Assembly: GCF_010509075.1 (NCBI RefSeq)
Contig: NZ_CP048433.1
Coordinates: 744,001-808,000 of the forward strand
Direction of reading: 5' to 3'
From: Collinsella aerofaciens ATCC 25986
GTDB lineage: Bacteria > Actinomycetota > Coriobacteriia > Coriobacteriales > Coriobacteriaceae
Length of the DNA stretch: 64,000 nucleotides
The notes beneath the pieces are model-generated. The model ran no database searches, had not been told where the DNA came from, and worked only from the letters and a program-made list of their open reading frames with translations. Positions 13,196 to 40,319 of the stretch are shown here, piece by piece. A program made the translations under genes and the position numbers. Position 1 is the stretch's first letter. Each line of letters starts with the position of its first letter.

Positions 13196-16100
13196 TTAGC
13201 TTTTCTCAACCAGCCTAACCTCAAGCGCTTCTAGATGCAGAGCCTCACCAGTTGTACCGGCACACTCGCCCGATTTAACCCAGTCTAGCCAACCTTTGCT
13301 TTGAACGTGTGCCCTATAGACAACGTCATAATGCTTGGCAAGATCTCCCGTCAGTTTTATTTCAACAGCCTCAACAGCAAGAGACTTCCCCGTAGTACCG
13401 GCAACCTTTCCATTTTTGACCCACTTTTGCCAGCCGATATTTTGAACGTGAGCTCGATACTCGATGCCGCCGGAATACCCTAGGTCAGGCTTGCTAATCG
13501 TCAACGCCTCAACAGCAAGATTTCGGCCAGTTGTGCCAACGGTCATGCCTTCGTAAACAGGCGACTGCCAACCAAGGTTTGAAACATGTGCCTTGATTGA
13601 AAACGCTCTCTGAATAGAGGGCTGACTCGTATCCCCAGGAGCGGGCGAACCCTTTTCGACCAAAACGACCTGAAATGCCTCTAGCCTCAAAACGAAACCG
13701 GTCGTTCCGGCAACTTGATCATTGCAGGCCCAACCGAGCCATCCCTTATCCTGAACGTGAGCTCGATAATAAACGTCATAGTGATTGGCCATCTCACCAG
13801 TCAGGCGAATCTGAATAGCCTGGACAGACTTGCTCTGGCCCGTAGTACCAGAAACTTTCCCCTCCTTCACATAGCCCTGCCAGCCATAATCGGAAACATG
13901 TGTCCTGTACTCCAATGCACCATCATAGGGAGCATTCTGCAGATTGAGAGTAATAGCCTCGACGGCTTTTGACTGCCCAACGGTACCGGAAGCATTTCCA
14001 CCCTTAGAGGCCGATTGCCAGCCGTCATTTGAAACATGCGAAGTTGCCAAGACGTCAAGAGGGCCTCGTGACACCCTAACAACATCATAGCCCGACTCGC
14101 CCTTCTTGAAATAAGTCAGAGCACCGCTATTGTGCGAATAGATAGCAAAGTCGTAATTTGCCGAAGCAAGTATGGAATCCGAAAACTCTACGAGATAGCA
14201 AGAGTCTCCCTGTTTGCAAAGGGATCTGATAGCAGCATCCGTGTCTTCGGTAATCGGAGAAGCAAACCAATCCATAATGGAATAATCGATGACGGCACCC
14301 GGCTTCAAGGCCTCGGCCTTTGTGGAATTCCAAAGTCCACCAGCAGCATCGGCACTGGCCGAGTTATACGTACTAGACCCATAACCAGACAGACCGATCT
14401 CCGGATTAAAGAAGAGGATCAGCTCTGCAGCGACGGAAGAATCGACATCGGTAATGCCAAGACGGTCAAGCTGTTCCTGCTTTTGGGGATACATACCCGT
14501 CGGTGTGTTTGGATGCCCCTTGTAATAATACAAATAGTCATCGCCATAGATAACTTCGGTCAAGTTGGCATAGTCGTCAAAATTCTGCTCGTAAGAAACG
14601 TACGTTCCAAGCAGCATCATTACCTTTTTGCCCTGCTGAGTCGCCGCATCAAAATAGCCATCGTTAAAGTTGTACAGCGCCTTAAACGCTTGGACTGTAT
14701 CCTCTCCCCTATTCTGCAGGCTCGTAAGCATGCCCGAAACATTCACCTTCTTAACGCCGGGATCGGACGCGATCTTATTCGCAAAGGCATTATCGTCACC
14801 ACTCGTAAACAGATTCGTTCGAGTCATCCACCACTGAGTGCCAGGCTCAATACTCAGCACGGCATACATAGAATCCCAGTGATCGTGATAATCGCTATAC
14901 GACTTTGAGACCTCACCGGTTTCGTATTCCTTATTCTTGGCGGCGTTCCATAAAGTAATCAGCTCCGCTTGCTTAGAATCTGGATCCTTAACGTCAAAGG
15001 CTTCGTTGGTAAAGACATACGTGGCGGATCCATCGGACAACAGCCGAATGGAGTATTGGCCTGCGGGAATCTTGTTGGCGTAAATCATCCTATGGATCAA
15101 CGAACAGGTGATGTCATTGATATACAGATTGAACTTTGCCTTGGGATTGATCTTGTAGAGAGCAGCGACATAATCCGCGAACGCCTGATAGCTCGAACTA
15201 GAAGCATTCTCCTCATGAGTCAGATACGGAAGACCGTACATCCCGGATGGAAGCGAGTTCCAGTTATAGGCACTTGGACGATCGAGCATTACAATTGACG
15301 GAACGGTCGTTCCAGCAGAAGAGGTACTGATATCCCAGAAAGATAGCGAATAGAGAACAACGGGGAAAGAAGCACTCAAAGGGGCAAGGTTGTACTCACT
15401 CGCAGAAATGCCAATTGACTGATGGTCCTCTTGAACGATGTTTCCGTTCTTCAAATACTGCAACGTAACGTCAAACGGACCATAATCGCTAAATTCAATT
15501 TCACTGGAGCTAGAGCCCAGATCTCCGAGTGCAATCGTGCTTGAGACGGAACGGGTGACCCTCCCTCCATACGACATGGAGCCTGCCACCTTTATCGAAT
15601 CAGCGATCCCGAGTCGTTTTATATCCTCGATCTGCGGAATATTCAGGGTTACTTTAGTCGTCTCCCCAACCTGAGAAAGAGAGCAATTAAAGACATATGG
15701 GACATAGGCACCAGCAGTATCGCCGGGCGCCGCGTCACCTTTTTTTACAATGACGATCTGTATTGCTTCAACGGCATAAGACCAACCGGTGGTTCCCGCA
15801 GTCGACCCATTTGAAGTCCATCCAAGCCAGCCGAAATTAGAAGCATGAACGCGATAATACAGGTCATAAGAAGCCGCCCTGTTGCCCGTCAGCTTGAGCT
15901 CGACGGCTTCAATCTGAAGGCCCTTTCCCGTTGTGCCGGAGACGGCTCCATTAGAAACCCAATCCTGCCAGCCTTCATTTTGAACATGAGAGCGGTATTC
16001 GATACCAAGGTCTTCTGAATTAGGGAGGGAAACCCTGAGTGCTTCAAGCCTACGGGACTGGCCTGTTGTGCCAGAGGTCGAGCCATTCGATGTAAACGTC

Positions 16101-16363
16101 GGCTCCCAACCAATGCCTGAAATGTGAGATTTATAGCTGACGTCCGGGGCCGCCTCTTTGGGCTCCACGGTAGCATCAATCGAAGGCGCCGTTTCATCGG
16201 CTACAGCAGCAGTTTGATCCGAGGGGTCGGATTGGGTCTCTGGAACGGATTCATATTCGTTGGAACCAACATTTTGATCTGCCCAACAAGCCAAAGGGCT
16301 CAAAAGCAGCATCGTCATGAAGCAGGAAATCAGAACAATAAATGCTCTAAATTGCCTTTTCAA
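13196..16363 (-). CDS. Secreted ChW-repeat protein with Ig-like and GT80 sialyltransferase-like domains
   Basis: The 1055-residue protein opens with a signal peptide (MKRQF, hydrophobic core to about residue 29). Three ChW repeats (about 80-215) follow, then an Ig-like beta-rich segment (about 221-328). A roughly 440-residue domain (about 330-768) comes next, and six ChW repeats finish it. The large domain has LLSDGSATY near residue 443, LYYYKGHPNTP near 616 and GLSGYGSSTY near 661. These match my memory of the D/E-D-G, K-G-H-P and SS motifs of GT80 sialyltransferases, whose Photobacterium members also carry an N-terminal Ig-like domain. Secretion of a GT80-type enzyme would be unusual since CMP-sialate is cytosolic. 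The start is a TTG, eight bases after GGAGG. Confidence 0.7.
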   Translation of the reverse strand: MKRQFRAFIVLISCFMTMLLLSPLACWADQNVGSNEYESVPETQSDPSDQTAAVADETAPSIDATVEPKEAAPDVSYKSHISGIGWEPTFTSNGSTSGTTGQSRRLEALRVSLPNSEDLGIEYRSHVQNEGWQDWVSNGAVSGTTGKGLQIEAVELKLTGNRAASYDLYYRVHASNFGWLGWTSNGSTAGTTGWSYAVEAIQIVIVKKGDAAPGDTAGAYVPYVFNCSLSQVGETTKVTLNIPQIEDIKRLGIADSIKVAGSMSYGGRVTRSVSSTIALGDLGSSSSEIEFSDYGPFDVTLQYLKNGNIVQEDHQSIGISASEYNLAPLSASFPVVLYSLSFWDISTSSAGTTVPSIVMLDRPSAYNWNSLPSGMYGLPYLTHEENASSSSYQAFADYVAALYKINPKAKFNLYINDITCSLIHRMIYANKIPAGQYSIRLLSDGSATYVFTNEAFDVKDPDSKQAELITLWNAAKNKEYETGEVSKSYSDYHDHWDSMYAVLSIEPGTQWWMTRTNLFTSGDDNAFANKIASDPGVKKVNVSGMLTSLQNRGEDTVQAFKALYNFNDGYFDAATQQGKKVMMLLGTYVSYEQNFDDYANLTEVIYGDDYLYYYKGHPNTPTGMYPQKQEQLDRLGITDVDSSVAAELILFFNPEIGLSGYGSSTYNSASADAAGGLWNSTKAEALKPGAVIDYSIMDWFASPITEDTDAAIRSLCKQGDSCYLVEFSDSILASANYDFAIYSHNSGALTYFKKGESGYDVVRVSRGPLDVLATSHVSNDGWQSASKGGNASGTVGQSKAVEAITLNLQNAPYDGALEYRTHVSDYGWQGYVKEGKVSGTTGQSKSVQAIQIRLTGEMANHYDVYYRAHVQDKGWLGWACNDQVAGTTGFVLRLEAFQVVLVEKGSPAPGDTSQPSIQRAFSIKAHVSNLGWQSPVYEGMTVGTTGRNLAVEALTISKPDLGYSGGIEYRAHVQNIGWQKWVKNGKVAGTTGKSLAVEAVEIKLTGDLAKHYDVVYRAHVQSKGWLDWVKSGECAGTTGEALHLEALEVRLVEKS

Positions 16364-16548: not shown

Positions 16549-19320
16549 TTAGTAGATTACCACCTTGGTAGCAAGGGGCACGTTATCCCAAATCCATTTA
16601 GCGCGATCAATGGGCAAACGCACGCAGCCTTGTGAAACATGCATTCCCATTCGGCTGTCCATGGGATTAAAAGTTCCCTGGTAGTACGGTATTGAATGGA
16701 ACAGATAGTCACCGTAAAACTGCGTGTAGTAGTAGCAGGTATACCCATGTCCAAACGAGTAGCCCTTGCCGGTGACGGTATACTCACCCGTAGGCGTTGG
16801 AGTACTAGGGGCGCCGGTAGAGCAAGTCCAGTATTGAGCGTAACTCCACGACCCGCGCTGTCCACGAAAAACTCCAAGGCGGCATGCTTGCCTGTCAACC
16901 ATAATGAGCCAGCTTGTGCTGCTCGAATATCTATTAGCTCGATTAAGCATAGTCATCATATCTGCCGGCAACAAGGGCTGGTCAGTAAACGGACGCGCAG
17001 TAGAACCGGGAGCACCAGCGCCCTTGGGAACAATCTTCACTTGAACAGACTCGACTCTGCAGCCTATCCTAGACGTACCCGCAGGCTGCCCATTTGAGGT
17101 CCAGTCGAGCCACCCAAAGTCTTGGCAATATGCTCGATACCAAACATCAAAGTAGTTCGATAAATCACCGGTCAACTTAATCTTAAGAGCCTCGATACGC
17201 TTTGCGCAGCCTACTGTGCCAGCGACATTCCCATTGGAAGTCCAACCTTGCCAGCCCACATCCTGTACATGGGCGGAGTACTCAATACCGCCTGATACGC
17301 TACTGGAGACATTCAACTTCAGCGCCTCAATAGCAAGCGATCTGCCGGTTGTGCCCGCAACACCACCGTTGCCAACGGGATTCATCCAACCAAGCGTGGC
17401 GACATGCGCCTGGAGCGTTAGAGCTGGAGCAGAGATAAATGCGGGCGCAGACGATGAGCCAGGATTCCCGCCCTTCGCGACAAGCTTAATTTGGACAGCT
17501 TCTATCTGGATATTTAACCCGGTAGTTCCAGCGGAATCGCCGTTTTTGGCCCAACCCAACCAACCATAACCAGCCGAATGAACTCGATAGTAGATGTCAT
17601 ACTGATTCGCGAGGGGACCATTAATGCGCAGCTCAAGAGCCTGAATGGCCAATCCTTGTCCAACGGTCCCAACATAACCGGCAGACCGCCATTCCTGCCA
17701 ACCAATATTGGCAACATGAGCTCGTGCCTCAACCAGAGAATCATCATCCACACCGGCCAGCACCACATTCAGAGCTTGAAGCGAAAGCGATTTTCCCGTT
17801 GTGCCGGCATCCTGCCCATCTAAAACAGATGGAAACCACCCACGGCTAGCGGAATGGGCCTGATAAACAACATGAGCGCAATCGGCGGAAGTATCGGAAA
17901 CAAATGCTCCGTCCGTTACTCCGGGAGCGCCACTGCCTTTACTGATAATCCTTACTTCGACAGCCTTAAGGCATGAACCCGGTATCGTTGCCCCCGCATC
18001 CGCGCCATTACACGCCCAGCCAAGCCATCCTTTTTTGGAGTCAAAACACCGGTACCAAACGTCATAGGCATTAGACAAATCACCAGTAAGAGTCAATCTC
18101 ACGGCCTTCAAAGTACGGCCATCATTTTTAGAATTGAGCGCGGCACCGTCAGAAACAACTCCGCTCCATCCACTAAATTCATAGCAGCCTGAATAACCGA
18201 TTGAACCTGAAGTCTCTTGATTATCAAACGAAATAGAAAGCGATGTTAAAGGCTCAGAGCCGCTCTCGGAACCCATTAAAATCGTTTTACCCTGCACAGT
18301 GCCCAAGCTATTGCCATTAAGGCCATACGAACTGCCACTCAGAACATCCGTAGCTCCAATAAAATGATTCGCTGTATCTCCAGGAGCAGAGCAGCCCTTT
18401 TCGACCAACATAACCTGAATACCCTGAATGGCGGCACCCTTCCCCACCGAGCCCGCAGGAGACCCGTTGGACGTCCAGCCCAACCATCCGCCCAATTTGG
18501 AAGCATACACACGGTACCAAATGTCGTAAGTTGCAGATATCTCGTCATTGAGCTTAAACTGAACGGACTCAACTGACCGAGACTGCCCGGTCGTGCCAAC
18601 AGTACCTGAAGACCAGCTTTGCCAACCAATGCCAGAGACGTGCGCGCGAGAGGAAATAGAGCCTCCGTGGCCATACCAATTAACACTAAGCGACAGTGCC
18701 TCGATTGCATTTCTTGAGTCAATGACCCCCGATGTCTTTCCGTCCGCGACAACACCCATCCATCCAACATTGGAGATATGAGATCGATAGGAAACAGTAG
18801 GCGGTTCCTGGGAATGGTCCCTAAAGGCATCGCCTCGCGCTGGCGCATCTTGAGCATTTTTTGGAAGCACCTTTATCTGAATAGCTTCGATCTGATAAGC
18901 ATAGCCCTGTGTTCCAGCAGGCTCACCATTTGAGGCCCAGCCAAGCCAACCAACATTTGCAGAATGAACGCGATACCAAATGTCATACGAGTCAGAAAGA
19001 CCGCCCGACAAAGATAGCTTGATCGCTTCGATGGCTCGCGACTGTCCAACTGTTCCAGATGTCTGCCCGTTACCCACCGGCTGAGGCTCCCAGCCGATCC
19101 CGGAAATGTGTGATTGGACCGAAATGCTGTCAGTCCCCAAAGGGGTGCCATCTTGTGAAAGCAGATTGATCTTGAGGGCTTCAACGCGCTTAGCACGACC
19201 TGTTGTGCCAGCCGTCATTCCATTTGAAACGGGAGCCTGCCAGCCAATATCCTGTACATGAGTCTGGTATGAAACAGAACCAAAGACAGCGGATACATCA
19301 TTTTCGGGTTTCGGCGAATC
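16549..19320 (-). pseudogene. ChW-repeat L,D-transpeptidase, 3' part split off by an IS21 insertion
   Basis: This is the downstream part of a secreted protein whose start lies at 21964. It carries about fourteen ChW repeats, two degenerate in the middle, and ends with a YkuD L,D-transpeptidase domain. That domain has SWLIMVDRQACRLGVF, then FHSIPY and the catalytic HVSQGCVRLP motif with Cys and His. Such enzymes make 3-3 crosslinks in peptidoglycan. Removing the IS and one copy of the 4-bp target repeat rejoins the two parts in frame, giving a 1011-residue ancestor. As it stands the fragment has no signal peptide, so an exported enzyme is unlikely. Confidence 0.9.
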
Positions 19321-21589: not shown

Positions 21590-21696
21590 GAATGCGATAG
21601 GAAAGTCATAGATGCGGGCGTGTTGGCTAAAATGGGTCGGCCGGGATTGGTCAATCTCGGCCGACTATATTTGGCTAAATTATTCCGACGCTAACA

Positions 21697-21964
21697 AATC
21701 AGTCGCATTGGAAGCAGACTCGCTAGAAACGGATGAGGGAGAATCATTGTCTGACACAGTCGGCTGCTCGACTTCAACCCCCTGCTGTTCATCATTTAGG
21801 ACGAAACTCTCGTCTTCCGAGCTGCTGGCGGCGCTATTGGAATAATCAGTAGACTCCGGCTGCACCGGTAAAGAATCAGCCCAGACAGAAAGGGGCGTCA
21901 GAAGACAATGAAGAATCAGTAATGGCGTCATTGCCGTTGCTAGCAGTCGTTGCGTCTTTTTCAT
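21697..21964 (-). pseudogene. 5' part of the ChW L,D-transpeptidase gene (signal peptide)
   Basis: Starting at an ATG behind GGGGAAG, this encodes a signal peptide (MKKTQRLLATAMTPLLILHC and on to VWADS). A Ser/Glu-rich low-complexity linker ends at NATD, where the IS21 element begins. The frame then runs into the IS end and stops after a few residues. Joined across one AATC copy it continues as DSPKPENDVSAVFGSVSYQT and straight into the first ChW repeat. The present product would be a short exported peptide, if made. Confidence 0.9.
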
Positions 21965-22096
21965 TCGACTTCCCCATCAATCGACCATCTTTAGCATCAT
22001 TATTTATCGTTTCGGCAATTGCTTAAATACCGAAAACGTGAATGGCACTTAAATAGAAACGAACGGACCGTTGCAAAACGACCGGTGACGCATAAT

Positions 22097-23432
22097 TTCT
22101 TTCGCAAATTGACAACCGCATAGCGGAACACGGCCCGCGCCCCGTCATATGATTTCTAGCGACTAAACAACAAATCACCGACGAAGGGGGCACGGGCCGT
22201 GTCTGCGAACATCGTATCAGTCGACGAGGAGTCGCTGCGCAACGACATAAAGAATCTGGTGAGGAAGACCGTCGAGGAGACGCTCAACGCACTGCTCGAC
22301 GAGGAGGCGTCCGAGCTCGTCGGGGCCGAGCGCTACGAGAGGACGGCGGGCCGGGAGGCCTACCGCAGCGGCCACTACACGAGGAGGCTCGTCACGGGCG
22401 CCGGGGAAGTCGAGCTCAGCGTGCCGAAGCTCCGCGGGGCGACCTTCCAGACGGCCGTCATCGAGCGCTACCGCAGGCGCGAGACCTCGGTCGAGGAGGC
22501 CATCGTCGAGATGTACCTGGCGGGCGTCTCCACCAGGAGGATCGAGGACGTCTCCGAGCTCCTGTGGGGAGCGCCGGTGTCCTCCGGCACCGTCTCCAAC
22601 CTCAACGAGAGGGCCTTCGCGTCCATCGAGACATGGCGGCAGAGGCCGCTCGAGGGCGGCTACCCCTACGTCTTCGTCGACGGTATCTACCTCAAGCGCA
22701 GCTGGGGAGGGTCCTACGAGAACGTGGCCGTGCTGGTCGCCATCGGCGTCAACTCCGCCGGCGACCGGGAGGTCATCGGCTGCTCCGAGGGGTACACCGA
22801 GTCCGCGGAGTCCTGGCGCGAATTCTTCTCCTGGCTCAAGGGACGCGGGCTCTCCGGCGTACGGCTCGTCACCGGCGACAAGTGCGCGGGGATGCTCGGT
22901 GCGCTCGAGGAGGTGTTCCCCGGGGCCCGCTACCAGCGCTGCACGGTGCATTTCTACCGCAACGTGCTGGGAAGGGTTCCCGTGACCAGGCGGAAGGCCG
23001 CGGCGCGCATGCTGAAGGCGATCCACGCGCAGGAATCGCGCGAGGCATGCGCCAGAAAAGCCGAGGAGGTGGCGGAGGAGCTGGAATCGATGAGGCTCGG
23101 GGCGGCCGCGAGGACGGTGCGCGACGGGTTCGCCGAGACGCTTGCCTACACGGAATTCCCACCGGAGCACTGGCGCCGGATCAGGACGAACAACGGGATC
23201 GAGCGCATCAACCGCGAGATCAGGAGGAGGACGAGGGTCGTCGGGACCTTCCCAGACGGCAATTCGGCTCTGATGTTGGTGACGGCGAGGCTGAAGTACA
23301 TAGTGGAGCACGAGTGGGGCAAGAGGAGGTACTTGGACATGTCGAAGCTGGAGGAGATGGACGAGCTGAGGGGAAAGGCGGAGGGCTAGAAGAGGACGGG
23401 GCCGGAGACGGCTAAATCAATTTGCGAAAGAA
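22097..23432 (+). mobile_element. IS256-family element
   Basis: Inverted ends TTCTTTCGCAAATTGA occur at 22097-22112 and, inverted, at 23417-23432, bracketing a full-length transposase. I see no convincing 8-9 bp target repeat, so one side may have been altered. The element sits in the gap between two ChW genes. The flanking sequences at 22057-22066 and 23453-23462 are complementary, as if it had landed in the apex of a terminator hairpin. Confidence 0.85.
22199..23389 (+). CDS. IS256-family (mutator-type) transposase
   Basis: The 396-residue protein matches the IS256 family length and layout. It has GREAYRSGHYTRRLVT and VELSVPKLR near the N-terminus and YPYVFVDGIYLKRSW for the first catalytic Asp. 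GVRLVTGDKCAG supplies the second Asp, RYQRCTVHFYRNVL follows, and RTNNGIERINREIRRRTRVVGTFPDG carries the Glu. The start is a GTG after AAGGGGG. The frame is open throughout, so it is probably active. Confidence 0.95.
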   Translation: MSANIVSVDEESLRNDIKNLVRKTVEETLNALLDEEASELVGAERYERTAGREAYRSGHYTRRLVTGAGEVELSVPKLRGATFQTAVIERYRRRETSVEEAIVEMYLAGVSTRRIEDVSELLWGAPVSSGTVSNLNERAFASIETWRQRPLEGGYPYVFVDGIYLKRSWGGSYENVAVLVAIGVNSAGDREVIGCSEGYTESAESWREFFSWLKGRGLSGVRLVTGDKCAGMLGALEEVFPGARYQRCTVHFYRNVLGRVPVTRRKAAARMLKAIHAQESREACARKAEEVAEELESMRLGAAARTVRDGFAETLAYTEFPPEHWRRIRTNNGIERINREIRRRTRVVGTFPDGNSALMLVTARLKYIVEHEWGKRRYLDMSKLEEMDELRGKAEG

Positions 23433-23512: not shown

Positions 23513-26500
23513 CTATGCAAGCGGCACGTTGTCATACCAACCCCACTTTGGCTTATATGAGGTGGAATAATAATCCAACCAGTACGCCATATCGAGCGTC
23601 CTGATCTGACCGACATTATCCATAACCTGGTTATTGCCAATATAGAGACAAACGTGACCGTAAATGCTGCCCATGCGGGTATGCGTATGCGAAGGAACGG
23701 CAATGACCATTCCAACTTTCAGCTGAGAATAATCGGTGAATTTACAATAATCCCAGTAGTAATCGCAGGCATCTGTATGGACGTTCCTAAATCCGGCACG
23801 CTCGTAGATATCTGCAATCCACTCGGAGCACAATCCCGGGCCAGGAGACGGTACCTGTCGGGCAAGATCAACAATCTTCTTCTGCATAGGATTTGCAAAC
23901 GCAGAAGGCTGCCCAAGCAAACATGGCGAAACGGTGCTCCCGGGGGCATTGGCGCCCTTCCTTGTAAGTCGAACTTGAACAGCTTGGACATGCGTCCCAT
24001 AGCCAGTGCTACCGGCAACGGCACCATTTTTAGTCCAACCAAGCCAGCCGACATTATCGACATGGACCCTATACCAAACATCAAAATAGGTTGCTAAGTC
24101 ACCAGAAAGAGAAATTTTAATAGCCTCAACCGAATTAGATTCAGCGGTAGACGAAAGCTGCTCCCCGTTTGTCTTGCCAGAAGTCCAGCCTACATTCGAA
24201 AGATGCAGTTGATAAGCAATCCCGCCGGCAACAGATGAAGTAGTTTTAGCCGAAAACCCGGTGATGGGAATTCCCTGACCGGTCGTACCGGACACCTCTC
24301 CGGCAGGGACATAATTCTGCCAAGCACCTTTCACCTGAGCGGAATACGTCACCGTAGGTATTTCAAGATGGGGATAGCCCGATGTATCAGGATGGGAGGT
24401 ACCCTTCTTAATGAGCTTAATCTGAACAGCCTCGAGAGAGCATGACATACCGGTGGTGCCGGCCTCCTCGCCGTCCTTGGCCCAGGCCATCCAGCCGATG
24501 TTGGAGGCGTGCACGCGGTAGTAGACGTCGTAGTCCTTGGCGAGGGAGCCCGTGAGCCTCAGGCGCACGGCCTCGACGGCGCGGCCCTGGCCGGTGGTGC
24601 CGCCCTCGGAGGCCGAGGGGGTGTCCCAGCCCTGCCAGCCGACGCCCGAGACGTGGGCGTCGATCTGGACGCACGAGCCGTCTGAGTAGTCGGAACTGTC
24701 GAGCGAGAGCTTGAGGTCCTCGAGGGCGAGGCCGCGGCCTGTGGTGCCGGCGGTCGCCCCGTCGGACACGGCGCCCTGCCAGCCAACGTTGGAGACGTGG
24801 GCGCGGTAGGTCAGGGACATGGGCTTCTTCTTGAAGGCGTAGTCGACGTTGGCCCCGTCGGACGAGGGGGCGGCGTCGCCCTTCTTGACGAGCCTGATCT
24901 GGACGGCCTCGACGCTCCTGCCGAAGCCCGTGGTGCCGGCCTCCTCGCCGTCCTTGGCCCAGGCCATCCAGCCGATGTTGGAGGCGTGCACGCGGTAGTA
25001 GACGTCGTAGTCCTTGGCGAGGGAGCCCGTGAGCCTCAGGCGCACGGCCTCGACGGCGCGGCCCTGGCCGGTGGTGCCGCCCTCGGAGGCCGAGGGGGTG
25101 TCCCAGCCCTGCCAGCCGACGCCCGAGACGTGGGCGTCGATCTGGACGCACGAGCCGTCTGAGTAGTCGGAACTGTCGAGCGAGAGCTTGAGGTCCTCGA
25201 GGGCGAGGCCGCGGCCTGTGGTGCCGGCGGTCGCCCCGTCGGACACGGCGCCCTGCCAGCCAACGTTGGAGACGTGGGCGCGGTAGGTCAGGGACATGGG
25301 CTTCTTCTTGAAGGCGTAGTCGACGTTGGCCCCGTCGGACGAGGGGGCGGCGTCGCCCTTCTTGACGAGCCTGATCTGGACGGCCTCGACGCTCCTGCCG
25401 AAGCCCGTGGTGCCGGCCTCCTCGCCGTCCTTGGCCCAGGCCATCCAGCCGATGTTGGAGGCGTGCACGCGGTAGTAGACGTCGTAGTCCTTGGCGAGGG
25501 AGCCCGTGAGCCTCAGGCGCACGGCCTCGACGGCGCGGCCCTGGCCGGTGGTGCCGCCCTCGGAGGCCGAGGGGGTGTCCCAGCCCTGCCAGCCGACGCC
25601 ACTTACATTGGCGTTAATTTGCACAGAGCCATCTTCAACGGGATTCAAGATGCTGACCTTAAGATCCTCCACTGATTTAGACTGCCCCGTTGTGCCAGCC
25701 GTAGATCCGTCGCGCTTGCTGCTCATCCAGCCAATATTCGAGACATGCGCCTCATACTGAATATGCATCTTGCTGTCATCTACGTTGAGAAGAGAACCGT
25801 TGAAGCAGTAGTTCATGTCACAGCGTCCGTTGACGCCCGGGACATTGCCACTGCTTGAATACTGCCAGAAACTGTAGCTGCCAGCATAATCGCAACGCCA
25901 ATTATATTGAGCGACCCAATGGTCATAACCGCTCAACGACGGAGAATTCAGGTAGTTGTTAAGCCAGTTAAGGTTCGCATAGATACCCGACTTAAAGCCA
26001 ACGGCCTCCATACGGTTGCAAAAAGCCTGCGCAATCTGGGTAAGCTTATCCTTGCTGAAATCCGGATCTTGCAAGATATAGCTATCCTCAAGATCATAAT
26101 AAACGGGAAGCGACGGATGATGGCCGCCGAGCCAAGCAAGTGTCCTGTCGGCCTCTTTATTGGCATCCTCTACAGAACGGGCGTAGGAGTAGTAATACAC
26201 GCCATAAGGAATGCCGAGGCGTTCACATTCAGCAGCGTTCCTTTCAAAAGAATCGTCAGGTTTTCCGTAAACCGGACCGACCTTGAGAATGGCAAAATCA
26301 ATCCCCGCGGCCTTAACCTTATTCCAATCAACAGTTCCTTGATGATTGCTGACATCGATGCCGCGCGCAACAGCGCCATTGGGCAAAGGATCGTCAGTTA
26401 AAGACTGCGCATCGATGTCGCCATTGTCAGAATCGATAAGCACGCCGTTTTCGAAACGCCAAGAGTTCGGTTCCAAAGAGTCGGCTTCGCAGGAATTCAT

Positions 26501-26848
26501 TTCAGTGGAATCATCGGTTGGGGCTTCACCGTTTGACTCGTCAACACGAGACTCTTCGATGCCAATTCCAGGCTGTTCGCCTGAATCAGAGTCTACACCC
26601 CCATCAGGACGAGCAGCATTTGCATCGTCACCATACCATTCGGTTACACCCTGAGAACCCGAGGCATCGTCCTGCGCTCCCTGAGAGCTTGCACCTTGAG
26701 ATTCGTACTCGTTCGATGTTTGCGAGACCGACTGCGAAGCAGCGGCGGCCTGGACCGACAGCGCATACGCGCTGTAAGGCTGAATGATTTGCGACCAGCC
26801 CATCAATAGCGTACAAACCAAAGCAGCAGACGCTTTAAGACGTTTCAT
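23513..26848 (-). CDS. Secreted ChW-repeat protein with GH25 lysozyme and NlpC/P60-like domains
   Basis: The protein of about 1111 residues has a signal peptide (MKRLKASAALVCTLLMGW), an acidic Ser/Gln-rich linker, then a GH25 muramidase domain (about 155-360). The GH25 domain shows GIDVSNHQG near 163 and the YYDLED catalytic acid near 253. About twelve ChW repeats follow. The C-terminal papain-fold domain has LCSEWIADIY near 1005 (Cys) and YGHVCLYIG near 1064 (His), as in NlpC/P60 or CHAP amidases. It therefore carries two peptidoglycan-cutting activities. The start ATG follows GGGGGGAT. The repeat array holds a GC-rich 477-bp tandem repeat unlike the rest of the gene. Confidence 0.9.
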   Translation of the reverse strand: MKRLKASAALVCTLLMGWSQIIQPYSAYALSVQAAAASQSVSQTSNEYESQGASSQGAQDDASGSQGVTEWYGDDANAARPDGGVDSDSGEQPGIGIEESRVDESNGEAPTDDSTEMNSCEADSLEPNSWRFENGVLIDSDNGDIDAQSLTDDPLPNGAVARGIDVSNHQGTVDWNKVKAAGIDFAILKVGPVYGKPDDSFERNAAECERLGIPYGVYYYSYARSVEDANKEADRTLAWLGGHHPSLPVYYDLEDSYILQDPDFSKDKLTQIAQAFCNRMEAVGFKSGIYANLNWLNNYLNSPSLSGYDHWVAQYNWRCDYAGSYSFWQYSSSGNVPGVNGRCDMNYCFNGSLLNVDDSKMHIQYEAHVSNIGWMSSKRDGSTAGTTGQSKSVEDLKVSILNPVEDGSVQINANVSGVGWQGWDTPSASEGGTTGQGRAVEAVRLRLTGSLAKDYDVYYRVHASNIGWMAWAKDGEEAGTTGFGRSVEAVQIRLVKKGDAAPSSDGANVDYAFKKKPMSLTYRAHVSNVGWQGAVSDGATAGTTGRGLALEDLKLSLDSSDYSDGSCVQIDAHVSGVGWQGWDTPSASEGGTTGQGRAVEAVRLRLTGSLAKDYDVYYRVHASNIGWMAWAKDGEEAGTTGFGRSVEAVQIRLVKKGDAAPSSDGANVDYAFKKKPMSLTYRAHVSNVGWQGAVSDGATAGTTGRGLALEDLKLSLDSSDYSDGSCVQIDAHVSGVGWQGWDTPSASEGGTTGQGRAVEAVRLRLTGSLAKDYDVYYRVHASNIGWMAWAKDGEEAGTTGMSCSLEAVQIKLIKKGTSHPDTSGYPHLEIPTVTYSAQVKGAWQNYVPAGEVSGTTGQGIPITGFSAKTTSSVAGGIAYQLHLSNVGWTSGKTNGEQLSSTAESNSVEAIKISLSGDLATYFDVWYRVHVDNVGWLGWTKNGAVAGSTGYGTHVQAVQVRLTRKGANAPGSTVSPCLLGQPSAFANPMQKKIVDLARQVPSPGPGLCSEWIADIYERAGFRNVHTDACDYYWDYCKFTDYSQLKVGMVIAVPSHTHTRMGSIYGHVCLYIGNNQVMDNVGQIRTLDMAYWLDYYSTSYKPKWGWYDNVPLA
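24453..25600 (-). repeat. 477-bp tandem repeat, about 2.4 copies, inside the GH25-ChW gene
   Basis: Copies begin at 24453, 24930 and 25407. The 671 bp from 24453 match those from 24930 without a difference that I can find. Each unit encodes 159 residues, or three ChW repeats, and is in frame. The block is strikingly GC-rich compared with the coding DNA on both sides, where homologous protein repeats use AT-richer codons. Confidence 0.93.
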
Positions 26849-26961
26849 GCATATCCCCCCGAGACAGTAACCACAGATAAAGAAACGAATACTAGCTATA
26901 TTACCGCACTTCCATACAGGCATTTAAAGCTTAGGAAAGCACCAGTTAGCACACAGTCAAA

Positions 26962-26997: not shown

Positions 26998-29900
26998 CTA
27001 TGCGAAAGGCCTAGCGGCACCGATTACACGACCTGGAGCATTGACCGAGCGCTCGGTCACACCGATCCCAGGCCACGAATCAATGATTCGACCGTTTCCG
27101 ATATAGATTCCAATATGGCCCTGGTAGTAGACCACATCTCCCCTCTGCATAGCAGAAGTGCTAACCGGCATAAACGTGTTGTTGCGATACCAATTCATGG
27201 AGTTGTAGGTTTGCTCGGGCAACCAACGATGGTTATACGGGTTATACCAACCCATATCCATGCCAGTCGCATACAGACATTGCAGCACTAAGCCCGAACA
27301 ATCAACCGCATCCCCCGGCCAAGAAGACCAAGGCTCGATATAACGCGTCCCGATATATTCACGAGCACGCTGGACGAATGCGTTGATGCAATCCTGTCGC
27401 GAAGCGTTGTAAGGAATTCGAGAAGGCGTGACATACGTAAAGTAACCGGTGCAATACGAAGGAAGCTGCACGCTATTGCAACTAACCTTTGGATAAGATC
27501 CCGGGGTCTGATACCCCATATAACGATAGGTCTCAAAATACGAATCAGACGTAGAGCCTGGTGCGGAAGCGCCCTTGGGAACAATCTTTACCTGTAATGC
27601 CTGAACAGGAATGCCAAGCTTCGTGGTGCCCGCCGGTGATCCATTTTTGGTCCAGCCAAGCCATCCGTAATTTGACACGTGGACGCGATACCAGACATCA
27701 AAGTAATTCGAAACGTCACCAGTCAAATTAATCTTCACAGCTTGGATTTGTTGTCCCTGTCCAATGGTTCCCGCTGTGGCTCCATCTGAGACAGCAGATT
27801 GCCAGCCGATATTGGATACGTGGGCGGAATACGAAATGCCACCGTTCATGGAACTATCGGAAAGGGACAGTTGCATTGCCTCCATGGCACGGTTCTGCCC
27901 AACCGTTCCGGCAACACCGCCATTGCCAACAGACGCTTGCCAGCCAAGACCGGAGCAATTTGCCTTAGCGGATAGCCCAGGAAGCTGGATCAACGCAGCA
28001 TGATCTTGAACGGGAGCGTCGGACGAACCCTTGGCAACCAACTTAATTTGAATTGCCTCGGCCTGCTTAGACAGCCCAACGGTGCCAGCTGCGGCGTCAT
28101 TTTTAGCCCAACCAAGCCAACCATAATCCGCCGCATGAATACGGTAGTAAATATTGTATTTTGACGAGTCGTTGCCAGTGAGCCTTAATTTAACCGCCTG
28201 AATTGCGAGGCCCTTGCCAACAGTGCCAGCATAGGAAGCACCCGAAACGTATGGCTGCCAACCGATATTCGCAACGTGTGCTGACACTTCAACGGAGGCA
28301 TCGATGCCCTGCGTCGAAATATACAACGCCTGCAGAGAACGAGACATGCCCGTCTGGCCGGCAGTTTCGCCATTGCCAACGGGAGCCAACCAGCCCGCAG
28401 AAGCAACGTGCGCCTGGGATACAAGACCGATTCCCGACGTTTCGGTAAATGCATTACCGGTAGAACCAGGGGCAGGTTGACCCTTACGAACAAGTGCAAC
28501 ATCTATGCCGCACAAACCGGAAGAACCACCAGAAACGCCACATGCCTGACCATTTGACGTCCAGCCCGTCCAGCCATTACCGGAATCGTATACTCGATAC
28601 CAAATGTCATAATTGGCAGCAAACTGGCCGCTCAGCGACATTTTTATCGCTTTAATGGGTGCGCCGGATACCGCCTTGGCGGCGCCGCCATCCGATTCGG
28701 AAGCACCCCAGCCTGAATATGCATCCATAACGGCATAGGAAATTGACCCGTCATCAGTTTGGCCTGCAACGCTTAAGGCAATGGAGTTCAGCAGTTTGGC
28801 GCCCTTGCCTCCAATCGTAGCCTTTTGACCAGAAGATAAGCCAAGACTCTCCCCAGAAACGGCGGATCCGGAAACCGCAACAGCATCTAGATCGCCGATA
28901 AAGACCTTGCTCGAAGAGCCAGGCGCTGCTCCGCCTTTCTCCACAAGGATTACCTTTACCGCTTCGATAGCCTTGCCTTTACCGGCAGAACCAGCGGCAG
29001 CTCCATTACAAGCCCAATCGAGCCAGCCTATACCAGAGACATGAGCACAGTACCAAATGTCATATTTTTCAGCTGCCTCACCGGTTAGACGAATCTGAAC
29101 GGCTTCGAGACGCTGAGACTTACCAGTCGTTCCACAGTGCCCCTCAGACCACTGTTGCCAGCCGACATTAGAAACATGGCCACGAAGCTCAATGGAGCCC
29201 GAGTGACCATACCAGCCAAGCTGAGCCTCAAGCGCCTCCATGGGGAGGCCCCTACCAGTTGTCCCGGCAACAGATCCGCCGCCTACGGGCGACATCCAAC
29301 CAATATTCGACGTATGTGAGCGAACAGTGATTGAGGCAGGTTCATCGCTACGGCTCTTAAAAGGACAGGAGGTGTCGCCCGGGGCGGGGTCGCCCTTGGG
29401 CAGGACCGCGACCTGGACGGCCTGGACGGCGCGGCCGTAGCCCGCCGAGCCGGCGTCGGCGCCGTCGCACGCCCAGCCCAGCCAGCCGAACTCGGCGGAG
29501 TGGACGCGGTACCAGACGGTGTAGCGGGCCGACAGCTCCCCGGACAGCCTGACCCTCAGGGCCTCGACGGCGCGGGACTGGCCGGTCGTGCCGGCGGTGC
29601 CGCCGTTGCCGACGGCGGCCTGCCAGCCGACGTTGGAGACGTGGGCCTCGACGGATATGGCATTTGCAATCTGTTCTTGAGAGGTGGCTCCATCCACTTC
29701 AAGTGAGATTTTTAGTGCCTCAAGATTCAAGCCCCTACCCGTGGTTCCGGCAACCTTACCCGAACTAACCGGATCCATCCAGCCAATATTCTGCACATGG
29801 GCAGAAACACTAACGTTTTTGACGGTGAGCTGATCGTTGGAGGCAGAATCAGCGGCAGCGGCTTCGTTAGTCTCCCCCGATAAGACCTGCTGCGCGTCTT

Positions 29901-30114
29901 GAGGCTCGCTATCTACGGAGCCAGCATCCGATTCTTGCCCCCCAGAGATAGGCTCAGCTTGATTGGAAGTAGAGCCTTCAAGATGAAAGCTGTTTGAATC
30001 ATCAGATCCGTCAATTGAATAATCGGCATATGCAGCAGTCACGGCCCATGATTGACTCATGAACAGCGCGATAACCACAAGTATAGAAACGGACACATCT
30101 AAGAGACGCTTCAC
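26998..30114 (-). CDS. Secreted ChW-repeat protein with NlpC/P60 peptidase domain
   Basis: The 1038-residue protein has a signal peptide (MKRLLDVSVSILVVIALFM), an acidic linker, about fourteen ChW repeats (two degenerate in the middle) and a C-terminal NlpC/P60 domain. Catalytic residues are visible as VDCSGLVLQ near 936 and GHIGIYIGNG near 1000. These enzymes cut stem peptides in peptidoglycan. Its repeat order parallels the split L,D-transpeptidase gene, so the two are paralogues with swapped catalytic ends. The start is a GTG after AAGGAAGG. Only 30 bp separate it from the C39-like gene upstream, with no terminator between. Bases 29371-29661 are GC-rich and identical to part of that neighbour. 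Confidence 0.93.
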   Translation of the reverse strand: MKRLLDVSVSILVVIALFMSQSWAVTAAYADYSIDGSDDSNSFHLEGSTSNQAEPISGGQESDAGSVDSEPQDAQQVLSGETNEAAAADSASNDQLTVKNVSVSAHVQNIGWMDPVSSGKVAGTTGRGLNLEALKISLEVDGATSQEQIANAISVEAHVSNVGWQAAVGNGGTAGTTGQSRAVEALRVRLSGELSARYTVWYRVHSAEFGWLGWACDGADAGSAGYGRAVQAVQVAVLPKGDPAPGDTSCPFKSRSDEPASITVRSHTSNIGWMSPVGGGSVAGTTGRGLPMEALEAQLGWYGHSGSIELRGHVSNVGWQQWSEGHCGTTGKSQRLEAVQIRLTGEAAEKYDIWYCAHVSGIGWLDWACNGAAAGSAGKGKAIEAVKVILVEKGGAAPGSSSKVFIGDLDAVAVSGSAVSGESLGLSSGQKATIGGKGAKLLNSIALSVAGQTDDGSISYAVMDAYSGWGASESDGGAAKAVSGAPIKAIKMSLSGQFAANYDIWYRVYDSGNGWTGWTSNGQACGVSGGSSGLCGIDVALVRKGQPAPGSTGNAFTETSGIGLVSQAHVASAGWLAPVGNGETAGQTGMSRSLQALYISTQGIDASVEVSAHVANIGWQPYVSGASYAGTVGKGLAIQAVKLRLTGNDSSKYNIYYRIHAADYGWLGWAKNDAAAGTVGLSKQAEAIQIKLVAKGSSDAPVQDHAALIQLPGLSAKANCSGLGWQASVGNGGVAGTVGQNRAMEAMQLSLSDSSMNGGISYSAHVSNIGWQSAVSDGATAGTIGQGQQIQAVKINLTGDVSNYFDVWYRVHVSNYGWLGWTKNGSPAGTTKLGIPVQALQVKIVPKGASAPGSTSDSYFETYRYMGYQTPGSYPKVSCNSVQLPSYCTGYFTYVTPSRIPYNASRQDCINAFVQRAREYIGTRYIEPWSSWPGDAVDCSGLVLQCLYATGMDMGWYNPYNHRWLPEQTYNSMNWYRNNTFMPVSTSAMQRGDVVYYQGHIGIYIGNGRIIDSWPGIGVTERSVNAPGRVIGAARPFA
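29371..29661 (-). repeat. 291-bp block identical to 33073-33363
   Basis: Base-by-base reading of both blocks shows no difference over 291 bp, with identity ending abruptly on both sides. It encodes about two ChW repeats. Here it is a GC-rich patch in an AT-richer gene, while at 33073 it blends with its surroundings. The direction of copying was therefore probably from the 33 kb gene into this one. Confidence 0.93.
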
Positions 30115-30144: not shown

Positions 30145-31457
30145 CTATTTAATGACGACCGCCTGAGCTCCTCTTTGCGAGTATAGCGAAGCAATGCGCT
30201 GAGCTGAGTTAGAGACATAGCCAGCGAGTGAATCAGCAATGTAAACGGTACCTAGGGAGCGATTAAAGCCTCTTAAGACAACGGTGTGAGAGTTGGTATA
30301 GGTTCTATAAACCCTTCCGCCGTAAGCCTGAGTCGCATAGCAACTTCCCAGGTTTTGCATACCTATCGTTGACCAAATAATAACGGGATGTCCAGCTTCC
30401 AAGTACGAATAAAGGTCATAGAAACCAGTACCGGTCACATCGTAGGCTCGCAAACTACTACCACTGCTAATCAAGAAAGAATTCGCGGTGTTGGTCAGTC
30501 CGGGAGCAGATATGCAGTTTCCATTCGAAGCGCTATGAGGATTGCCCCAAAACGCCGTAACAAAATCCCAACTGCTCCTAGGCATATACGCGTCTGCAAT
30601 GACGGTTTTACCCAAACCAAATCCGTAATAGTTAAGCGCATTGGTCAATGCAACGGACTCGCAGCCAGTCGGAAGCTCGGGGTTCTGCATTGTACAAGGG
30701 ACGTTGAGAACAACCGAATTCGGATGCAATGGGCGGTCCCTGTACGCGCCGTCCGTCGGGCCCGGGGCCGCCGAGCCCTTCGCGAGGACGCGGACCTGGA
30801 GCGCCTCTACGCGGTAGCCGATGCCGGTCGTGCCGGCGCGGGCCCCGTCGCTGGCCCAGCCGAGCCAGCCGTAGTCCTGCACGTAGGCGCGGTACCACAC
30901 GTCGTAGTACTCGGAGAGGTCGCCGGTCAGGCGCATCTTCACGCACTCGACCGCCCTGCCCTGGCCGGTGGTGCCCGCCACGGCGCCGCCCGAGACCTCG
31001 TCCTGCCAGCCGACGCCGGAGACGTGGGCGCTGTAGGACAGGCCGCCGGAGACCGGCGAGGAGACCTCGGCGGCGATCGCCTCGACGGCGCGGGACTGGC
31101 CGGTCGTGCCGGCGGTGCCGCCGTTGCCGACGGCGGGCTGCCAGCCGACGCCGGAGACGTGGGCCCTGAGGCTGAGCGAGGGGACGGAGAGCTCGGCGGG
31201 GTCGCCCGTCGAGGGGGCGTCGCCGCCCTTCTCGACGAGGACGGCCTGGAGGGCCTCTGCCTGGACGCCGAGCCCCTCGGTGCCCGCGGCCTCGCCGTCC
31301 TTGGCCCAGCCGAGCCAGCCGTAGCCGGCCGCGTGGACGCGGTACCACACGTCGTAGCGCTCGGAGACGGGGCCGGAGAGGGACACCCTCACGGCCTGGA
31401 CGGCGCGGCCCTGCCCCACCGTGCCGGCGTAGGAGGGGGCGGAGGCGGCGTCCTGCC
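30145..31457 (-). pseudogene. ChW-repeat C39-like peptidase, 3' part, cut by an IS3 insertion
   Basis: The fragment carries about five ChW repeats, then a C-terminal domain of about 195 residues. That domain has LNVPCTMQNPELPTGCESVA, GHPVIIWST and TNSHTVVLRGFN, the Cys and His motifs of C39-like (Peptidase_C39_2) papain-fold peptidases. Its 5' part lies at 32675-33786 beyond an IS3-family element. Rejoining the flanks does not restore the frame and, compared with the paralogues, about 230 residues of repeats are missing. DNA composition switches at about 30740: the peptidase domain is AT-richer and the repeat array is GC-rich. Confidence 0.85.
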
Positions 31458-31518
31458 TGGATTGGCTACACTGATGTGGACAGTTCCGGGAGGGGCGCAG
31501 GAGACGGGAGGGCCGTAT

Positions 31519-31806
31519 ATGAGGGACCCCAGGCACCCGAGGCATTTCACCGACGAGTTCAAGAGGCAGATAGTCGACCTCTACAACGCCGGCAAGCCCA
31601 AGCGCGAGATCATGGACGAGTACGACCTCGGCAAGAGCACCGTGGAGAGGTGGATCAAGTCGATAAACGCGACCGGCTCGCCGCGCGCCGCGTGCAACCG
31701 CACGCCCGAGCAGAACCGGATCCTGGAGCTCGAGCGCGAGAACCGCAGGCTCCGGATGGAGGTCGACGTCTTAAAACAAGCGGCGCTGATATACGCTCGA
31801 AAGTGA
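31519..31806 (+). CDS. IS3-family transposase OrfA
   Basis: The 95-residue protein has a helix-turn-helix (FTDEFKRQIVDLYNAG and EYDLGKSTVERWIKS). A leucine-zipper-like tail follows (NRILELERENRRLRMEVDVL). It binds the IS ends as part of the OrfAB transposase. The ATG follows GGAGG by seven bases. Near its end the run CTTAAAAC at 31770-31777 is a plausible -1 slippage site into orfB. Confidence 0.92.
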   Translation: MRDPRHPRHFTDEFKRQIVDLYNAGKPKREIMDEYDLGKSTVERWIKSINATGSPRAACNRTPEQNRILELERENRRLRMEVDVLKQAALIYARK

Positions 31807-32660
31807 GGGCCATAGCGGCCAACGAGGGCCGCTACCCCATATCAGCGCAGTGCAGGCTCCTCGGCGTCGCGAGGTCGACGTACTACTCCATGCGCTCGCG
31901 GGCCGACCGGCCCGCCGCGCCGGACCCCGCCGCGCCGGCCGTGGTCGCGGCCCACGCCGCCAGCAAGGGCCGGTACGGCTCGCGCAAGATAAAGGCGTCG
32001 CTCGAGAGGTCGGGCGTCACCGTCAGCCGGCGCCGGGTCTGCCGCATCATGAGGGAGAACGGCCTGGTCAGCGCATACGGCAGGAAGAGGTTCAAGGTGC
32101 ACCCCGGGGCGGTCAACGAGGCCGACGTGCCCAACGTCGTCGCGCGCGGCTTCGGCGGCAGGGCGCCGCGCACCCATATATGCAGCGACCTGACCTACGT
32201 GCGCGTCGGGGCCTCGTGGAACTACGTCTGCCTGCTCGTCGACCTCTACAACAGGGAGATCGTCGGCCACTCCGCCGGGCCCAGGAAGGACGCCCGGCTG
32301 GTCAAGTCGGCGTTCGCGACGCTCTCCTTCCCCATCTCGGACATCGAGGTCTTCCACACGGACCGCGGCAGCGAGTTCGACAACGCCGAGATCGACCTGA
32401 TGCTCGAGGCCTTCGGCATTGAGAGGTCGCTGTCGGCCAAGGGCTGCCCCTACGACAACGCCGTCGACGAGTCGACCAACAGGATACTGAAGGCCGAGCT
32501 CGTCCACCGCGAGACGTTCGGCACGACGCGCGAGCTCCGGGCCAAGCTCTCGGACTACGTGCACTGGTACAACAACTTCAGGATCCACTCGACGCTGGGC
32601 TACATGTCTCCGGTCGAGTTCAGGGAGGCGGGGCTGTCCCTCCCGGAATCGTCCAAATAG
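31770..32660 (+). CDS. IS3-family transposase OrfB (made by -1 frameshift)
   Basis: About 297 residues are open from the slippage site. The integrase core has ICSDLTYVRV for the first Asp, VFHTDRGSEFDN for the second and NRILKAELVH for the Glu. HWYNNFRIHSTLGYMSPVEF closes it. The upstream HTH_21-like region (KGRYGSRKIKASLERSG) is also typical. There is no good independent start codon, so the product is most likely an OrfAB fusion. Confidence 0.9.
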   Translation, partial: LKTSGADIRSKVRAIAANEGRYPISAQCRLLGVARSTYYSMRSRADRPAAPDPAAPAVVAAHAASKGRYGSRKIKASLERSGVTVSRRRVCRIMRENGLVSAYGRKRFKVHPGAVNEADVPNVVARGFGGRAPRTHICSDLTYVRVGASWNYVCLLVDLYNREIVGHSAGPRKDARLVKSAFATLSFPISDIEVFHTDRGSEFDNAEIDLMLEAFGIERSLSAKGCPYDNAVDESTNRILKAELVHRETFGTTRELRAKLSDYVHWYNNFRIHSTLGYMSPVEFREAGLSLPESSK

Positions 32661-32674
32661 GTGTTGCCAATCCA

Positions 32675-33786
32675 GACAGGCCAACCGTGCCCGCGGACGC
32701 GCCGTCCTTGGCCCAGCCGAGCCAGCCGTAGTCGGAGCAGTGCACGCGGTACCAGACGTCGTAGGACGAGGCGGCCTCGCCGGAGAGCCTGAACTGGAGC
32801 GCCTCGACCGCTAGGGAGCGCCCGGTGGTGCCGGCGGTCCCCGAGGTCCAGCCCTGCCAGCCGACGTTCGAGACGTGGGCCCTCACCTCGAGGGAGGAGG
32901 ATCCGTGCCCGTACCAGGAGACGGAGCCCGAGAGGGCCTCGAGGGCGCGGCCCTGCCCGGTGGTGCCGGCGACGGCGCCGTCCGAGACGGAGCCCTGCCA
33001 GCCGATGCCGGCGACGTGGGCGCGGTAGGAGACGGAGGGGGGCTCGGAGGACCTGTCGACGAACGGGGTGGCGGTGTCGCCCGGGGCGGGGTCGCCCTTG
33101 GGCAGGACCGCGACCTGGACGGCCTGGACGGCGCGGCCGTAGCCCGCCGAGCCGGCGTCGGCGCCGTCGCACGCCCAGCCCAGCCAGCCGAACTCGGCGG
33201 AGTGGACGCGGTACCAGACGGTGTAGCGGGCCGACAGCTCCCCGGACAGCCTGACCCTCAGGGCCTCGACGGCGCGGGACTGGCCGGTCGTGCCGGCGGT
33301 GCCGCCGTTGCCGACGGCGGCCTGCCAGCCGACGTTGGAGACGTGGGCCTCGACGGATATGGCGTCGGCGCCGAGGGGCTCGCCGGTCGAGGCGTCGGAC
33401 AGGACGAGGCGCAGCGCCTCGAGGGGGAGCCCCCTGCCGGTCGTGCCGGCGACCTCGCCGCCGGCGACGGCGCCCATCCAGCCGATATTGGAGACGTGGG
33501 CCGAGTATGAGAGCGAGACGGGCGCGGCCGCCTCGGACCGGGCGGGCTCCGCCTGGGCGCCGTCGGCCTGCGAGGCCTCGGGCTGGGAGGCGTCGGCCTG
33601 CGCGGGCTGGGCGGCGTCGGCCTGGGCGGCGGGACCCCCGTCGGCGGGCTGGGCCCCGGCGGCCGGGGCCTGCGCGTCGCCCGGGGCGGCGGGGGCGGCG
33701 TAGGCCGCGGGCCCGCACAGGGCCAGGGCGGCCGCGACCGCCAGCGCGGCGGCGGCACCGGAAATTCGTTTCGTGAAGCGTCTCAT
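32675..33786 (-). pseudogene. ChW-repeat C39-like peptidase gene, 5' part with signal peptide
   Basis: The fragment starts at an ATG behind AGGGGGAT. It encodes an Ala-rich signal peptide (MRRFTKRISGAAAALAVAAA), a Pro/Ala/Gln/Asp low-complexity linker and about six ChW repeats, then runs into the IS3 end after AGTVGLS. It is GC-rich throughout. It may still yield a secreted, catalytically empty ChW protein, because the frame continues for only about 13 IS-encoded residues before a stop. It is the first gene of the five-member ChW family. Confidence 0.88.
33073..33363 (-). repeat. 291-bp block identical to 29371-29661
   Basis: This is the probable donor copy of the shared block, embedded in GC-rich sequence of matching style. 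A 57-bp part of it also recurs near 31081-31137 in the other half of the same gene. Confidence 0.93.
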
Positions 33787-34359
33787 GGAAAATCCCCCTA
33801 ATCTAGCAACGGTTTCCAAGTCTACTAGATTGGGGGGACGGGAGCCAAGCTGCAATACCCCCAAGACACCCGTCTATAGGTCGTGACGTTGTCTATAAAC
33901 AGGCTCACCGCCCGCGGAATAAAATTCGGCGCAAATCGTTTGAGCAGGCGACGCGCGGAAGGAGCGTGTAGGGCGGTAATATACTGACCGTCAGCCGCGG
34001 CATCCTCGCGGAAACCCATTTGTTGCCGGAACTATAGTCCCCGGCGCGGGCTCACCTTATCTCCCCGGCACGGGCTCGATATCCTCTCGGATATCTAATC
34101 GTCTTGGACTTTTACCCACCCAAGCACAGTACGGCTTTTACGTGCCGCCACGCAGAGCCTAGCCTGGAACTATTGTCTAAAACATAGGCCTTCAAAGCAA
34201 CTTAGGTTCAAGTACGGACATGCAAATACGGGCACTGGATACAGGTCTTGACTGTCAATGGTTATCAATCGCATGTGTTTCTGGCAAATTACGCCCGTCT
34301 TATGCGTGCGATACAATCAGTCTCACCGAACACCAAACCAGCAACCCGAAGGGACCAAC
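33787..34359. other. Intergenic region upstream of the ChW locus
   Basis: No convincing gene is present. It should hold the promoter of the leftward ChW gene and that of the rightward DUF4869 gene. A short imperfect direct repeat (CCCCGGC-CGGGCTC) occurs near 34039-34070. I could not assign promoters with confidence. Confidence 0.5.
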
Positions 34360-35869: not shown

Positions 35870-35945
35870 ATGGACTACTGGACCGAAGCCGCCGCATAGA
35901 GACAGTAGAATGGTCGCATCGCGATATACGAGGAAAGGTGCAGCC

Positions 35946-36143: not shown

Positions 36144-36202
36144 TCGGCAAATCGACTTGGGCGATGGGACCCTCACGATTGACCCGACAGATCTTGAGCA
36201 CA

Positions 36203-36246
36203 TCGCCCCCTTGCCGGATTCAAACCCGGCAAGGGGGCGATTATCT
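36203..36246 (+). terminator. Rho-independent terminator after the antitoxin gene
   Basis: TCGCCCCCTTGCCGG at 36203-36217 pairs with 36226-36240, a perfect 15-bp stem with an 8-base loop, followed by TTATCTTG. It would end transcription of the passenger gene inside the IS. Confidence 0.85.
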
Positions 36247-36443: not shown

Positions 36444-36496
36444 AATCCGATACCCTGAGGGCCGGATCGGCCGGCCCCGGGAGATCGGAGGACGCC

Positions 36497-37056: not shown

Positions 37057-37066
37057 CTAACACAGG

Positions 37067-40300: not shown

Positions 40301-40319
40301 ATGACAGGCGTAGGGCCAT

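Follow-up and report, generated by a model that had tools for sequence, protein, structure and literature searches.

The window analysed here is a 64,000-nucleotide stretch of the Collinsella aerofaciens ATCC 25986 genome, which is assembled as 2.46 Mb in three contigs. All 56 ChW (PF07538) matches found in this genome fall within the window, at ~13.2–33.5 kb, where they form five minus-strand arrays, each with a different partner: none found, YkuD, GH25, NlpC/P60, and Peptidase_C39_2. The features of the locus, in window positions, are the following.

13196..16363, minus strand: ChW array with no further Pfam domain at a cutoff of E 0.001; any exact match to the other arrays is shorter than 30 bp
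16549..19218, minus strand: ChW array with a YkuD domain; likewise no exact tract of at least 30 bp in common with the other arrays
23513..26923, minus strand: gene A, a GH25 domain ahead of the repeats and 12 ChW stretches; GC-rich middle with GC3 up to 0.99
26998..30114, minus strand: gene B, a putative N-terminal leader, 12 ChW stretches, and an NlpC/P60 domain
29371..29661, minus strand: copy of the block in gene B, coding for 97 residues (two ChW repeats); GC3 0.99
30145..33864, minus strand: gene C as a whole, ChW repeats and a C39-type peptidase, split by an IS3-type element
30145..31545, minus strand: 3′ fragment of gene C, four ChW stretches and Peptidase_C39_2; the listed ORF starts inside the insertion element
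31079..31165, minus strand: 87-bp repeat in the 3′ fragment of gene C that matches part of the block at 97% identity, with 58 bp exact
31458..32674, plus strand: IS3-type element in gene C, with an HTH_21 and rve transposase ORF (31476–32660) and imperfect terminal inverted repeats
32620..33864, minus strand: 5′ fragment of gene C, a putative leader and six ChW stretches; the frame enters the insertion element for 55 bases and then meets a stop
33073..33363, minus strand: identical copy of the block in gene C, 291 bp exact

Genes B and C are tandem, same-direction paralogues with different C-terminal enzymes and belong to a ChW-repeat family that is presumably secreted. In the available part of one report the function of ChW repeats is given as unknown, with peptidoglycan binding suggested, and the ChW-repeat (PF07538) autolysin-like proteins described there likewise combine repeated ChW modules with wall-enzyme domains (PMC8051824). 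Our literature search found no paper uniting ChW repeats and gene conversion and nothing on Collinsella recombination in a pangenome context; the papers naming both Collinsella aerofaciens and ChW are on other subjects, as judged by title.

The closest named relatives (loci L064–L068) are Collinsella aerofaciens isolates and one Collinsella MAG, and the sibling assemblies are drafts or MAGs; L064, L067, L068, and L065 correspond to genomes G004, G008, G011, and G030, respectively, and the isolate behind L064 is MCC370 and that behind L067 is D59t2_181005_D7. L066, whose gene B is 99.84% identical to that of the window over 3117 bp, is treated as conspecific, while L065 is another species-level genome (98.5% at the rpoB locus).

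In the window, gene C is interrupted by an element that we take to be of the IS3 type from its pair of HTH_21 and rve domains. Eight full-length, near-identical copies of the element occur in the same genome, and no full-length copy was found in the three relatives searched (G004, G008, and G030). At the insertion site, gene C lacks ~737 bp that are present in L066. Because the element splits C, the GC-rich gene at 33 kb of the initial annotation is here a 5′ fragment without an enzyme domain. In L065, by contrast, gene C forms a complete 1050-aa ORF, and in L066 its frame stays open across an N gap. The composition of C also shifts within 30145–31457, where GC3 is ~1.0 in the ChW repeats and ~0.5 in the C39 domain.

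The two copies of the block, at 29371–29661 and 33073–33363, are direct repeats in the same orientation with 0 mismatches in 291 positions, and the match is maximal, with 0 extra bases at either end. In a protein-guided alignment of 365 codons, the 5′ portions of the two genes stay in register across the block, and identity in the flanks is 50.2% at the nucleotide level and 46% at the amino-acid level, so the initial description of identical blocks between sharply diverging flanks holds. Where B and C encode the same amino acid, 93 of 93 codons are identical within the block versus 29 of 113 outside it. When codon columns were permuted, 0 of 10,000 permutations attained the 291-bp run (largest, 39), and the same was true of the corresponding runs between B and C within two relatives, 284 bp in L065 and 287 bp in L066 (0 of 10,000 each). 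Since the two genes are in register on both sides of the block, the block represents a replacement and not an insertion; a cassette inserted into B is thereby ruled out. At least two full-length copies of the block were found in the genome itself (40 of 116 candidates scored), and viral contigs gave 0 exact matches to a 30-base piece of it.

The block is also a GC-rich island in gene B, as first noted: its GC3 is 0.99, compared with 0.46 and 0.50 on either side, and the maximum among the 749 other 291-bp windows of B is 0.60. In gene C, GC3 is 0.87 before the block and 0.98 after it, and averages ~0.94 over the 5′ ChW part. The block thus resembles C and not the rest of B, indicating that C-type sequence sits in B. 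The proposal that the GC-rich gene was the donor is supported to this extent, and gene C would have been the first donor and B the recipient, a direction read from composition only.

Both L066 and L065 carry a copy of the block in each of B and C. The copies within a genome differ at 0 of 291 positions in the window, at 1 of 291 in L066, and at 2 of 290 in L065, where both differences lie at the 5′ edge. The L066 copy in C is interrupted by an N gap, with the first 79 bp of the block written on either side; for this copy the part after the gap was used. The listed ORF of L065 gene B starts late (943 aa). At nine columns (76, 82, 94, 123, 127, 135, 136, 178, and 184) the B and C copies of L065 agree with each other and differ from those of the window, which also agree with each other. 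A long identical tract that includes synonymous sites, sharp edges, and greater identity within than between genomes are the known marks of gene conversion and concerted evolution among paralogues. The last of these is seen here across two species-level lineages only, and the case differs from paralogue conversion in general in being confined to one island of two repeats in otherwise diverged genes.

These comparisons bear on two other explanations of the identity. Strong protein or nucleotide constraint might keep the copies alike without exchange, and in its favour block columns 185–288 (104 columns) are invariant in all eight copies compared. The nine columns, however, vary between genomes yet match within each, and by a rough count ~0.1 such coincidences would be expected; moreover, the other same-family ChW repeats of the locus are 61–78% identical to the block, with one exception at 97%. 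Constraint is therefore extremely improbable, and the initial argument that selection on protein cannot explain the identity of synonymous sites is borne out by the 93 matching codons and by the nine lineage-specific bases common to both copies.

Placement of one repeat consensus twice during assembly could also produce two identical blocks, and the gap in L066 and the end of an L068 (G011) contig 55 bp inside the block are what short-read assemblies show at repeats. Nevertheless, the window assembly consists of three contigs, and the block is present in B and C of L066 and L065 as well, with a one-base difference between the two L066 copies and with L065 alleles unlike those of the window, making an assembly duplicate very unlikely.

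Three unfused B alleles from two species-level lineages (the window, L066, and L065) have the block at one and the same position. Conversion tracts had been predicted to vary in position among siblings; instead the position in B is constant and the edges differ by a few bases only (columns 5 and 7 in L065, ~1 base at the 3′ edge in L066). This constancy, together with the same junction between the block and the body of B in L064 and L067, suggests that the block arrived in B early, probably before the sampled lineages parted, although repeated independent conversions at one place of B may have the same outcome. No B without the block was found in the relatives, and the loci L069–L072, L075, L145, and L147 encode distant proteins (33–53% identical in the aligned segments shown) that provide no usable outgroup. 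The nine lineage-specific columns, on the other hand, are incompatible with one old conversion followed by separate evolution. Either homogenisation of the copies took place after the split of the lineages, or the locus came from a donor in which it had already happened. The conversion was initially called recent, a term that fits the last homogenisation and does not clearly fit the arrival of the block in B.

In L064 and L067, B and C are represented by one gene each, which follows C up to and through the block and then B to its end. The L064 fusion is an open ORF of 1020 aa, and the frame of the L067 fusion stops after 321 aa; gene A of L067 also contains an N gap. A search with the first 453 bp of B found nothing in G004 or G008, and in G011 it gave a single weak hit of 87 bp (70%, E 5e-4). 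The C39 part of C (the first ~600 bases of the query) was found in none of G004, G008, and G011, with nine candidates per genome scored, and the 3′ half of B is present in all three at 91–100% identity. In G011, a 67-bp match (94%) to the 5′ end of C lies on a separate contig from the one that ends inside the block, and this locus is probably fused as well. Thus, L064 and L067 lack both pieces that a crossover between the blocks would remove, and they appear to be fusions of the gtfBC type with loss of the intervening DNA.

In Streptococcus mutans, gtfB and gtfC are tandem paralogues for surface enzymes, and the parts of the report available describe clinical strains and a laboratory derivative that carry a fused gene with ~3.5 kb deleted (PMC3586492). 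The same parts place the recombination at the same position in several strains and link it to RecA, citing also a report of RecA-independent fusion (PMC3586492). The likeness to our locus lies in tandem paralogous surface enzymes that are fused, with intervening DNA lost, in relatives (PMC3586492). Unlike gtfB and gtfC, genes B and C are ~50% identical outside the 290-bp island, contrast strongly in GC, and carry different catalytic domains, and the evidence here is comparative only. The recombination process itself is well known, and gtfB/gtfC is the closest known case.

The fused gene could instead be ancestral, in which case the two-gene form would have arisen when a crossover at the block brought into a fused gene a segment with the remainder of C and the B 5′ end and so duplicated the block, with cycles of entry and loss keeping the copies alike. 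Among the 43 genus genomes, five have the 3′ half of B at 91% identity or more, and two of these five (G000 and G030) have its 5′ end; the fusion occurs in two, probably three, of the five, and the block edges are nearly identical everywhere, both of which would suit this order of events. However, in the incoming piece the low-GC 5′ end of B must already have been joined to GC-rich block sequence, which requires an earlier two-gene form whose B contained the block, and the similarly low GC3 flanking the block in B (0.46 and 0.50) fits B as an original whole. We consider an ancestral fusion unlikely. The block query has a match in 11 of the 43 genomes and a close one (at least 96% over 290 bases) in four, indicating that the locus is accessory.

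The fused loci also point to inter-strain exchange. Between L064 and L067, 23 of 6485 positions differ ahead of the block, 12 of 290 within it, and 231 of 2374 beyond it, so that divergence rises from 0.35% to 9.7% at the block (Fisher p ~6e-107 for before versus after, the upstream stretch having been picked after the profile was seen). The downstream end of the near-identical segment coincides with the 5′ edge of the block or slightly precedes it, the last differences lying 49, 6, and 4 bases ahead of this edge. Farther upstream, identity drops to 75–85% and then varies again, so the segment is bounded on both sides. This switch at the block implies that the fusion either arose twice on near-identical upstream DNA or arose once, its upstream part having spread by recombination ending there; the two fusions may therefore be one event spread between strains. 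The segment itself, which spans ~6.5 kb ahead of the fusion (L064 positions 3801–10285), shows 99.65% identity although the two genomes are species-level distinct and diverge by ~10% downstream, and it looks like a recent inter-strain transfer. The window and L064 show a similar step inside B, where the four successive 200-bp intervals just beyond the block contain 30, 30, 23, and 22 differences, respectively, and the remainder two. As judged from these alignments, the ChW locus is a mosaic among strains.

Based on these observations, we propose that homologous recombination, as conversion, crossover, and inter-strain exchange, acts at a short island of homology between B and C, a reading to which we assign a probability of roughly 0.8. 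Two ChW repeats of B would have given way to the corresponding C-type segment, most simply ahead of the split between the sampled lineages. The resulting island of ~290 bp is the only long near-identical stretch between the two genes, and thus would be the site where homologous recombination can act. Non-crossover events would keep both copies identical in each lineage, as the lineage-specific bases held in common suggest. A crossover between the copies would delete ~3.7 kb and leave the 5′ part of C joined to the NlpC/P60 end of B, presumably placing this enzyme behind the leader and first ChW repeats of C. Inter-strain exchange would also switch at the block, where one jump in divergence is seen, and the machinery would presumably be of the RecA type. 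Active exchange, as claimed in the initial annotation, is accordingly retained for B and C, and conversion by itself does not account for it, given the fusions at the block and the inter-strain junction.

The GC contrast marks the tract edges almost to the base, so that a single natural locus of a gut commensal allows conversion to be distinguished from crossover and from inter-strain exchange, and the locus offers a concrete route by which ChW repeat arrays may join other catalytic domains. A bolder version, which we regard as quite unlikely, is that selection keeps the island as an exchange port through which strains of the C. aerofaciens complex shift reversibly between two-gene and fused states, swapping the catalytic end that follows a particular leader and repeat part, within and between strains.

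A dedicated recombinase or silent-cassette system might instead move ChW cassettes, in keeping with the direct repeats and mosaic genes in one cluster and with the several transposase genes that lie between or near the arrays. In silent-cassette antigenic variation of the pilE/pilS and vlsE type, however, the donor cassettes are silent and have no 5′ end of their own, whereas in L065 gene C has a complete ORF and a start of its own and so, by structure, is not a silent cassette. Site-specific inversion of the shufflon type involves inverted copies and an adjacent invertase; the block copies, in contrast, are direct repeats, and a Pfam scan of 37 window ORFs turned up no invertase or tyrosine/serine recombinase family. 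As the block is also the only long exact tract between genes, programmed variation of this kind is highly improbable.

Exchange of repeat cassettes had been suggested for the locus as a whole, with all five arrays to be examined for conversion. Six exact direct-repeat pairs of at least 30 bp occur in 13196–33864 (671, 291, 194, 58, 58, and 32 bp). The 671- and 194-bp pairs reflect a 477-bp tandem inside gene A, and the 291-bp pair is the longest between different genes; the remaining exact tracts lie inside A or C, except for a 58-bp piece of the block that recurs in the 3′ fragment of C. The suggestion is thus upheld for B and C, which have a long exact tract between them, and for no other pair, and long exchange among all five arrays is not seen, with just these six exact pairs. 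The 87-bp repeat at 31079–31165 is possibly a further exchange tract, inside C.

We also scanned 80 ChW loci (77 plus L145–L147) for the three longest exact tracts per locus, of at least 60 bp. These loci are partly non-independent, L069/L146 and L126/L127 being possible duplicates. Matches due to the same DNA in overlapping ORFs (L067, L075, L088, and L101) or to an adjacent tandem (L129, 193) were set aside by their coordinates. Among the matches listed, exact tracts of 100 bp or longer link different ChW ORFs in five of the 80 loci (L066, 287 bp; L065, 284 bp; L133, 164 bp; L129, 160 bp; and L089, 114 bp), and shorter ones occur in L075, L085, and L145. The two longest are the siblings' own copies of the block. 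The presence of such tracts in five loci indicates that the process is not unique to the B and C pair.

Several additional features were observed in and around the arrays. In gene A, the tandem region (24453–25600; 477-bp unit, 671 bp exact) reaches a GC3 of 0.99, and the ends of the gene have a GC3 of ~0.5. The copy number of this tandem varies among the assemblies of the relatives, which may be due to short-read collapse. More transposase ORFs lie near the ChW genes, at 19458–23389 and 35021–41033, and include IstB, rve/Mu-transpos_C_2, Mutator family, IS1595 type, and rve_2 members. Finally, a low-GC glycosyltransferase and polysaccharide cluster (4017–12988) adjoins the ChW arrays, and it is our guess that this cluster makes the wall ligand of the ChW proteins.
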